Shown piece by piece: positions 28,428 to 29,815 of a DNA stretch of 64,000 nt. The stretch is from Oscillospiraceae bacterium (GTDB lineage Bacteria > Bacillota > Clostridia > Oscillospirales > Oscillospiraceae), in the NCBI GenBank assembly GCA_015067665.1, contig SVLZ01000003.1, positions 1 to 64,000 on the forward strand. The letters run 5' to 3'. The notes beneath the pieces were generated by a model. It was not told where the DNA came from, searched no databases, and saw only the letters and a list, made by a program, of their open reading frames with translations. Position 1 is the stretch's first letter. Every line of letters starts with the position of its first letter. The translations under genes were made by a program, and so were the position numbers.

Positions 28428-28515
28428 GCGCGAGTGGTGGAATTGGTAGACTCGCTAGATTCAGGTTCTAGTGTTCACTGCGGACGTGCGGGTTCAAGTC
28501 CCGCCTCGCGCACCA
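28428..28515 (+). tRNA. tRNA-Leu (anticodon CAG), CCA encoded
   Basis: The gene is 88 bases long. The acceptor arm GCGCGAG pairs with CTCGCGC, and the 3' end ACCA is encoded. A D-loop with GGTAGAC, an anticodon arm CTAGA-TTCAGGT-TCTAG giving anticodon CAG, a long variable arm (class II) and a T-arm with GTTCAAGTC are all visible. It decodes CUG leucine codons, which are frequent in this window. Confidence 0.95.
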
Positions 28516-28516
28516 C

Positions 28517-28558
28517 GAAAAAAGTCACTTTTGTCTAACGACAAAGGTGACTTTTTTC
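28517..28558 (+). terminator. terminator of tRNA-Leu
   Basis: A near-perfect inverted repeat of about 17 bp (AAAAAAGTCAC... with ...GTGACTTTTTT) begins two bases after the CCA end and finishes in a T-run. Its last base abuts the hairpin array. Confidence 0.9.
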
Positions 28559-28729
28559 AATGATATCCGTTCCTGTCGGAACGGGTGATATATCTTCGAT
28601 ATGATATCGCACTGTCGTGCGATGATATATGCCTTCGGCATATGAGGAACGGATATTATATCATGCTTGCGAAGCAAGTATATCATACGGCAGCGCCGTA
28701 TATCATATCGCATCAGCGATATATCATTG
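28558..28729. repeat. array of seven short hairpins with mirrored spacers and closing inverted repeat
   Basis: The hairpins (arm/arm) are 28,567-573/578-584; 28,590-594/598-602; 28,606-612/617-623; 28,627-633/637-643; 28,666-670/674-678; 28,685-691/695-701; and 28,705-711/716-722, with 3-4-base loops. Spacers in the left half read TGATAT and in the right half ATATCA, their reverse complement. The ends CAATGATAT (28,558-28,566) and ATATCATTG (28,721-28,729) pair perfectly. A second GGAACGGATAT at 28,646-28,656 can replace the partner of the first hairpin. The arms differ in sequence while the layout is regular, so structure rather than sequence appears to be selected. It ends exactly where the promoter of the four-helix-bundle gene begins. 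Confidence 0.9.
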
Positions 28730-28755
28730 AAAAGTACAACAACTCATGTTATAAT
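28727..28755 (+). promoter_or_regulatory. promoter of the four-helix-bundle gene
   Basis: TTGAAA (28,727-28,732), a 17-nt spacer and a perfect TATAAT (28,750-28,755). The -35 box shares its first three bases with the last bases of the hairpin array, so the array would lie outside the mRNA. Confidence 0.8.
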
Positions 28756-28777
28756 CATCTTGAAAGAGGGTGCATTT

Positions 28778-29131
28778 ATGTCCGAAAACAGATTACTTGA
28801 CTTATCTTTTGAATTTGCAGTTGCAATTGTTAATCTTGTTGATGGCGTAACTGCACCCAAAAGTTCTTATATGACCGATCAGCTTGCAAGAGCGGGTACC
28901 TCTGTTGGCGCAAATATCCACGAGGCTCAGTATGCGCAGAGTAAGAAGGATTTTGTATCAAAATTGGAAATTGCACTGAAAGAATCCAACGAAACAAGTT
29001 ATTGGCTAAAGCTGTTGTATGAAACAAAGAGAATAGATATGACCACATATCAATATACGGAAAAACTTTGCGGAAACATCCGAAGACTTTTAATTGCTTC
29101 CTGCAAAACCACAAAGGAGAATGCGAAATGA
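28778..29131 (+). CDS. S23-type four-helix-bundle protein, 117 aa
   Basis: Belongs to the family named after the 23S rRNA intervening-sequence protein (S23): LSFEFAVAIVNL at the start, RAGTSVGANIHEAQYAQSKKDF in the centre, then ESNETSYWLKLLYET and a final helix with CGNIRRLL. Relatives form pentameric four-helix barrels, and the accessory protein Avd of diversity-generating retroelements shares the fold; a nucleic-acid-binding role is likely, but function is unproven here. ATG 28,778 is chosen because AGAGGGTG precedes it and family homology begins there. The stop overlaps the start of the next reading frame by four bases. Confidence 0.88.
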   Translation: MSENRLLDLSFEFAVAIVNLVDGVTAPKSSYMTDQLARAGTSVGANIHEAQYAQSKKDFVSKLEIALKESNETSYWLKLLYETKRIDMTTYQYTEKLCGNIRRLLIASCKTTKENAK

Positions 29132-29404
29132 ATTTTCCTGAAATTCTGAACAACGCTTGCGTATTATACTACACACCGCAAGATTATTATGGAACAGTGC
29201 ACTACACCACTGGAGAAATCGCAGATTACATTCGCTATTTGCAAATACAAAAATGACACACAATACTATCTCTTTGGTTGCAATGCAGATTATGAAGTGG
29301 TGAGCGATTCACCATGGGAAAGCGTTGAACAATGCATGTTGGCAGCTAAAAACTCCTATGATTGTGTTATTTCGTGGATAGCAATGAACGAATACTACTT
29401 TTAG
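29128..29404 (+). pseudogene. frameshifted unknown gene coupled to the four-helix-bundle gene
   Basis: ATG 29,128 overlaps the preceding TGA, and AAAGGAGA lies upstream. The first frame (MNFPEILNNACVLYYTPQDY...) stops at TGA 29,254-29,256. The reading continues without obvious loss in another frame (NDTQYYLFGCNADYEVV...) to TAG at 29,402-29,404. Removing one A from the run at about 29,249-29,253 restores a single protein of about 91 residues. No family is recognised; it is rich in Tyr, Asn and Asp. It could be a true mutation, a homopolymer sequencing error or, less likely, a recoding site (the stop reads AAA TGA C). Confidence 0.55.
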
Positions 29405-29536
29405 TCTTTCTTACCTCATTTCTGCTCCATTTGGTTGTTCATAGACAAAAGAACCCGACGGGGATGCTTTTCTTTTGCTTTCGGAAAGCGCGCATCCGGT
29501 TCCGAAAGGGACCCCGCCTCGCGCGCGGAAATTCTT

Positions 29537-29579: not shown

Positions 29580-29815
29580 TGGGAGGGTTGTACCGAGAGA
29601 TTGCCACGGATGCAAAGCGTTCCCGCAATGACGGTGAGGGGCGGGACGGGGAACCCGTCCCCTACGGGGGGAGAACGGATCCTTCGGCTTCGCTCAGGAT
29701 GACGTCGTTTTTTCGGTAGGCGGTGGGCGATTTGTGAATCGCCCCTACGGTGAAAAACAAAAGGCGCTACCGGGAGATTGCCACACCAGCGTGCGCGCTG
29801 GTTCGCAATGACAAC
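29580..29815. repeat. cluster of intergenic palindromic repeats
   Basis: No gene is seen in 29,405-29,833. Two related units, each with TACCG(A/G)GAGATTGCCAC and later CGCAATGAC, lie at about 29,591-29,632 and 29,768-29,811. Between them are a GGGACGGG/CCCGTCCC hairpin (about 29,642-29,661), a segment with CCTTCGGCTTCGCTCAGGAT (29,681-29,700) and a GGGCGAT/ATCGCCC hairpin (about 29,726-29,744). A relative of the last one occurs at 48,065-48,085. They look like dispersed short repeats inserted next to one another. Confidence 0.7.

Follow-up and report, generated by a model that had tools for sequence, protein, structure and literature searches.

REPINs are short palindromes that occur as inverted pairs, dispersed in many copies per genome, and their few partner genes (RAYTs) are flanked by their own repeat type, with repeat type matching partner type (PMC3116915). 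The element described here shares these traits. It differs in that the partner is an S23 protein rather than a Y1 transposase, in that its sites are tRNA terminators, and in that its array has seven hairpins with freely varying stems, the conserved part being the spacer motif, whereas a REPIN has two fixed hairpins. Because the partner is not a Y1 transposase, the element is not a REPIN-RAYT.

A second relative is Gut-1 (RF01706), whose Rfam model fits the left and the right half of the array separately. When it was published in 2010, Gut-1 was taken for a likely noncoding RNA and was known only from human gut sequences (PMC2864571). In the present element, it makes up one half of an inverted DNA array tied to S23 and to tRNA terminators. 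The 23S rRNA intervening sequences with an S23 ORF, such as that of Coxiella, have long been proposed to be mobile and resemble the element in being selfish and in having an S23 gene, short tandem repeats and a stem (PMC4990558). Unlike them, the array element lies outside rRNA, behind tRNA terminators, and has its own promoter. No rRNA match was found at the locus in the window (the whole 64,000-nt stretch of DNA that was analysed), where the element adjoins tRNA-Leu and is not inside a 23S helix. Finally, Avd of the diversity-generating retroelements (4dwl, 8ub7) has the same four-helix fold as S23, but no reverse transcriptase, template or variable repeat was found with S23.

We consider it likely that the element belongs to a REPIN-like family of DNA repeats that is targeted to tRNA terminators and has S23 as its dedicated motif-reading protein. 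To our knowledge, Gut-1 has remained an orphan 'RNA' since 2010, and the function of S23 proteins has not been known since their discovery in rRNA intervening sequences. A link between the two would make of both orphans a protein-DNA system that is open to testing, in which a single residue is predicted to switch the specificity for a single base, and would reveal a gut-bacterial mobile family that spares its host by settling behind tRNA terminators.

The tRNA-Leu locus and its hairpin array

The features of the locus are as follows.

28428-28515, + strand: tRNA-Leu (CAG), identified by ARAGORN, the host gene upstream of the element
28517-28558, + strand: intrinsic terminator hairpin of the tRNA with its T-run, where homology between elements at different tRNAs begins
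28552-29131, + strand: movable block, common to TGATAT elements with S23 at other tRNA genes (blastn), from the T-run to the S23 stop codon
28558-28729, no strand assigned: hairpin array of 172 nt, both halves being Gut-1 (RF01706) matches
28561-28644, + strand: left half of the array, with TGATAT at 28561, 28586, 28602 and 28623 and one variable hairpin behind each motif (H1-H4)
28645-28664, + strand: array centre, AGGAACGGATAT..ATATCA, the reverse complement of the H1 left arm plus the first motif
28658-28726, - strand: right half of the array, with ATATCA at 28658, 28680, 28700 and 28721 and hairpins H5-H7
28727-28755, + strand: sigma-70-like promoter, TTGAAA-17 nt-TATAAT, read directly from the sequence
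28778-29131, + strand: gene for an S23 (PF05635/TIGR02436) four-helix-bundle protein of 117 aa
29128-29404, + strand: variable downstream ('cargo') gene, which here looks broken

The region 28558-28729 has the seven stems, with TGATAT on the left and ATATCA on the right, that a preliminary description had read from it, and the right half is a mirror image of the left on the opposite strand. The closing inverted repeat is present as well, although it measures 13 nt (TTTTCAATGATAT/ATATCATTGAAAA) and not 9. Seven local stems lie among the motifs, and positions 28645-28656 of the centre are complementary to the left arm of H1. Because the H1 left arm (TGATATCCGTTCC) together with the first motif is complementary to the centre (GGAACGGATAT..ATCA), H1 and the centre represent two alternative pairings. 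Compared with shuffled sequences, the array fold gave z values of -6.1 (RNA) and -6.6 (DNA), and none of 200 shuffles folded equally well. The promoter that had been placed at the array end was found, starting at 28727, with its -35 box overlapping the last bases of the array. Outside 28552-29131, the flanks are unrelated between copies, except for tRNA or terminator sequence in some.

Using Infernal, we observed a Gut-1 match of 59.2 bits on the + strand at 28558-28633, above the gathering score of 50, and one of 46.2 bits, under that score, on the - strand at 28653-28729. With one Gut-1 match per half, the two on opposite strands, what was published as 'Gut-1 RNA' corresponds to one member of an inverted pair. 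This identity, and the membership of the array in a multi-copy family, had been missed in the preliminary description, whose observation is confirmed as real.

The left-half loops are mostly TTC, TGC, TCC and TAC, and the right-half loops GAA, GCA, GGA and GTA. The latter are the reverse complements of the former, and the array is therefore strand-symmetric. In RNA stems, G·U is expected to be favoured. The RNA pattern, in which G·U is tolerated and A·C is not, fails in the array hairpins: internal single mismatches in 360 distinct hairpins comprised 8 G·T and 8 A·C, compared to 85 G·T and 5 A·C in tRNA stems of the same loci counted identically (Fisher p=4e-5). Strand-symmetric loops and stems without an excess of G·T support the DNA-level role that had been suggested. 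The suggestion that the fold is under selection also gained support, as the arrays do covary: at least one compensatory double change was found in 16 of 59 predicted pairs among 11 TGATAT arrays, which were taken from 10 genomes and lie at different tRNA or tmRNA genes. Across these 11 arrays, the centre is nearly invariant, and the motifs and the H1-centre pairing hardly vary.

The array could instead be a structured noncoding RNA, made by tRNA read-through or from a promoter of its own, with S23 as its RNA-binding partner. Gut-1 was, after all, called a likely noncoding RNA (PMC2864571), the fold is very stable, the left half has C(UUCG)G-type loops, and Avd, which is related to S23 in fold, acts in an RNA complex. 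We regard this as improbable, given that the loops and motifs of the right half are the reverse complement of those on the left, that G·T pairs are no commoner than A·C, and that the array has the tRNA terminator on one side and the promoter of S23 on the other. The evidence points to the array being a DNA element.

Dispersal of the arrays

A second array in the window's genome lies behind tRNA-Ser. The two arrays are 88% identical, but the terminator stem is not the same and the array stems show compensatory changes; S23 was not seen beside it in the short stretch before the contig end. Within the genus, Gut-1 was present in 76 of 136 genomes with at most 27 matches each, one array yielding up to two matches. 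Most of the 43 arrays that were inspected start 29-54 nt past a tRNA 3' end, directly after the T-run of the terminator, and others lie behind other terminators. The tRNA terminator is supported as the neighbourhood of the element.

One genome, G251, contains 15 closely similar arrays at different tRNAs, which can be aligned from 'CAGTGAAAT' to 'ATTTCAC' and are divergent beyond. It has a single S23 gene and near-identical solo arrays; a dozen or so solo arrays can accompany one S23 gene per genome. The interval between tRNA-Leu and rplS is filled in G251, where it spans ~1 kb with two arrays and S23, and empty in G263 and G266 (173-181 bp). The genomes compared are almost all draft MAGs and the empty loci are those of different species. 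Neither a duplication of the target site nor an empty site exact to the base could be made out. Dispersed arrays that are absent from orthologous sites agree with the mobile element that had been envisaged.

The window element would accordingly be read as one copy of a dispersed mobile DNA that settles at the terminator directly behind tRNA or tmRNA genes. The moving unit would consist of 'motif plus hairpin' repeats in inverted arrangement, with the S23 gene included in some copies and missing from many. That the array is instead a purely local, immobile operator of the S23 operon is very unlikely; the overlap of the -35 box with the array end and the co-evolution of array and S23 would fit an operator, but the many solo arrays without an adjacent S23 contradict it, and arrays are found at a variety of tRNA genes while orthologous sites lack them.

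Two further possibilities were set aside. Site-specific integration at tRNA 3' ends, as by an element of the tyrosine-recombinase type that leaves a copy of the 3' end on its far side, probably does not account for the family, because duplication of the 3' end is not general. A composite element, with a second array after S23, was seen in 7 of 63 cases compared to 3 with a reversed-motif control, and hence is not general either.

The S23 protein and the motifs of its array

The S23-type protein proposed for the locus scored above cut-off with both PF05635 (84.7 bits, cut-off 33.8) and TIGR02436 (95 bits, cut-off 24). Its predicted model (AF2, pLDDT 91.8) is closest to BT_0352 (2rld, TM 0.89) and also matches Xcc0516 (2gsc); Avd, whether alone (4dwl) or in the retroelement complex (8ub7), is more distant (TM ~0.8, 11-12% identity). 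The S23 protein of Xanthomonas campestris is a pentameric ring (PMC4990558). In profile searches, S23 of the window matched no Y1 family. In the open-access literature, we found no paper tying S23 to tRNA-adjacent or hairpin repeats.

Across the family and genus, where 124 S23 genes were compared, presence of an array pairs with a tRNA within 600 nt upstream (45/15 vs 9/55, p=4e-12). As an independent check, 80 named GTDB loci, mostly from ruminant and herbivore gut Clostridia, were chosen solely for the similarity of their protein to those of the array clade; because the query was built from that clade, the check is limited to it. Enough upstream sequence was available for 74 loci. In 55 of these, the 600 nt upstream contained a same-strand tRNA or tmRNA, with one on the other strand and one downstream, and a motif array was present in 66 of the 74, compared to none in dinucleotide shuffles and 2 of 71 in downstream sequence. 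By genome, S23 was found in 70 of 76 with Gut-1 vs 24 of 60 without (OR 17.5, p=4e-11); the six Gut-1 genomes in which it was not detected include several incomplete ones. Furthermore, the TGATAT clade of S23 and multiple TGATAT arrays occur together (7/9 vs 11/127 genomes, p=7e-6).

No catalytic site is known in S23, so the array may be moved by a different enzyme. Taken further, this would mean that an IS200/REP-type Y1 transposase or a reverse transcriptase is the mover and S23 a passenger or a cis-binding repressor, an alternative that we hold to be somewhat unlikely. The lack of a catalytic domain in S23 speaks for it, as does the association of weaker Y1 proteins with Gut-1 genomes, which is itself weak (OR 2.5, p=0.01). 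However, 26 Gut-1 genomes have no Y1 match, no Y1 protein was found in G251, G351 or G334 despite their high Gut-1 copy number, and the association with S23 is far stronger. IS200-type Y1 transposases and movement driven by reverse transcriptase were both rejected, neither being associated with Gut-1 genomes; RVT_1 is absent from the assembly of the window's genome.

The motif types (TGATAT, TGATG, TGAAG, TGAAAT, TTATAT, TTCACT and others) follow the S23 tree. The motif groups, whose labels were partly hand-assigned, required 14 changes for 13 groups, where the minimum is 12 and shuffled labels gave 65. In TGA-core arrays, the base most commonly preceding TGA depends on residue 4 of S23: it was A in each of the 58 cases in which this residue is Asn or Asp, and G in each of the 20 in which it is Ser. 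This rule holds in 78 of 78 cases, with both states occurring within the TGATG, TGAAG and TGAAA classes, and residue 4 of the window's S23, the motif-matching position, is Asn. On the best tree, made with the first nine residues excluded, residue class and base change 11 times each; strongly supported branches alone give one independent residue/base switch. Because only ~60 nt separate the codon for residue 4 from the array, recombination may have transferred the two jointly, and since array and S23 are physically linked, co-inheritance or co-recombination could yield part of the motif match. The same residue-base rule in distant S23 clades argues for recognition.

The earlier idea that the element has its own nucleic acid-binding protein is supported in that motif co-evolution links S23 to the array, and we infer from this match that S23 reads the motif, as DNA, through a code of residue 4 and the base before TGA. 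In the reading that we favour, residue 4 would contact or select that base, and S23 would serve the array copies of the genome in trans, as RAYTs are thought to serve REPINs, and would take part in their movement. S23 might in addition act as a repressor of its own promoter, where the -35 box and the array overlap. The residue/base match makes the function of the old orphan S23 family directly testable in gut Clostridia.

Two overlapping genes had been described, the second being coupled to S23. As described, the start codon of the second gene lies within the stop codon of S23, with ATGA at 29128 and AAGGAG in the last S23 codons, but its frame ends after 42 codons at 29256. Because the remainder to 29404 is in another frame, the gene looks broken, or there is a frameshift in the assembly. 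The overlap of S23 stop and ATGA start was found in 58 of 139 array-linked S23 genes (in 41 of the 58, the 3' end of S23 also contains a Shine-Dalgarno sequence) vs 6 of 52 in the other S23 class discussed below. A fixed partner is not supported, since the next gene differs in nearly every copy: acetyltransferases (GNAT), HAD, kinase, methyltransferase and unknown genes follow S23, and many copies have none. Two S23 genes from different clades are followed by acetyltransferases that are 69% identical. The 3' end of S23 looks like a ready-made expression junction, which would often supply the ribosome-binding site and ATGA through which an adjoining gene is expressed. As such a junction would express any next gene, it would explain why the downstream genes change; if this reading is true, the element could switch on any adjoining gene.

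A variable downstream gene with an overlapping start, in a tRNA neighbourhood, is also what a defence or toxin-antitoxin island might contain, the array being a decoy or antitoxin and the second gene an effector. We think this highly improbable: S23 matched none of the PADLOC defence models, and most of the downstream genes that were tested are metabolic or of no known kind, with many copies lacking such a gene. Overall, the interpretation given in the preliminary description is partly supported.

A second S23 class and other repeats near tRNA genes

S23 homologues without an array, which had been expected to speak against an element of this kind, do exist, yet they have inverted repeats of another kind, with a period of 7 nt. 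Neither these genes nor the arrays, which covary structurally, amount to the refutation that had been set out. Such repeats flank 44 of 46 S23 genes outside the array clade and none of the shuffles, and 0 of 67 array-linked S23 genes passed the same test. These non-array genes sit between operon genes, e.g., just before purD, ruvA, miaA or iscU. At the loci of this class (class II; L064-L116, e.g., L089, L070 and L076), ruvB, deoD and dnaX are also among the neighbours, and the repeat sequence varies while the two sides remain complementary.

Class II has the layout of the rRNA intervening sequences, in which the S23 ORF occupies the loop of a stem, and it is a closer parallel to them than the array element is. 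In Coxiella, 7-nt repeats precede the S23 ORF of the intervening sequence (PMC4990558). A wider reading, which we offer tentatively as a possibility, is that the S23 family comprises targeting or mobility proteins of an unrecognised class of mobile DNA. Gut-1 arrays, operon insertions with 7-nt repeats and 23S intervening sequences might then be three niches, each read by its own S23 through an N-terminal residue-to-base code.

Several smaller observations were made at tRNA genes. At one locus in G251 (L149, contig C41), tRNA-Thr, its terminator and its array form a tandem duplicate, showing that a tRNA and its array can be copied jointly. A different type of post-tRNA element was seen at L035, L037, L040 and L052, all after tRNA-Leu, and at L155, L156 and L161; in this type, hairpins are bounded by copies of the tRNA 3' end, often inverted, around the terminator. 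In the window's own genome, an S23 copy lies behind tRNA-Tyr (L003, G000:C34) with the heptamer repeats TTCACTA. There, terminator and repeats are duplicated after the downstream gene, and the centre repeats the terminator arm including CCA.

The window also contains a 12-nt copy of the tRNA-Leu 3' end (CCCGCCTCGCGC, 29512-29523), ~1 kb downstream, which may be an old attachment-site remnant; as a general pattern this was absent at other tRNA-linked loci, and tRNA-Leu 3' ends are repeated kilobases away also in G286, G305 and G259. Further downstream, at 29590-29815, a short palindromic repeat occurs twice (GATTGCCAC ... CGCAATGAC) together with a 'GGATCCTTCGGCTTCGCTCAGGATGAC' repeat that has a relative in L001. 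These look like other dispersed repeats of the window's genome.
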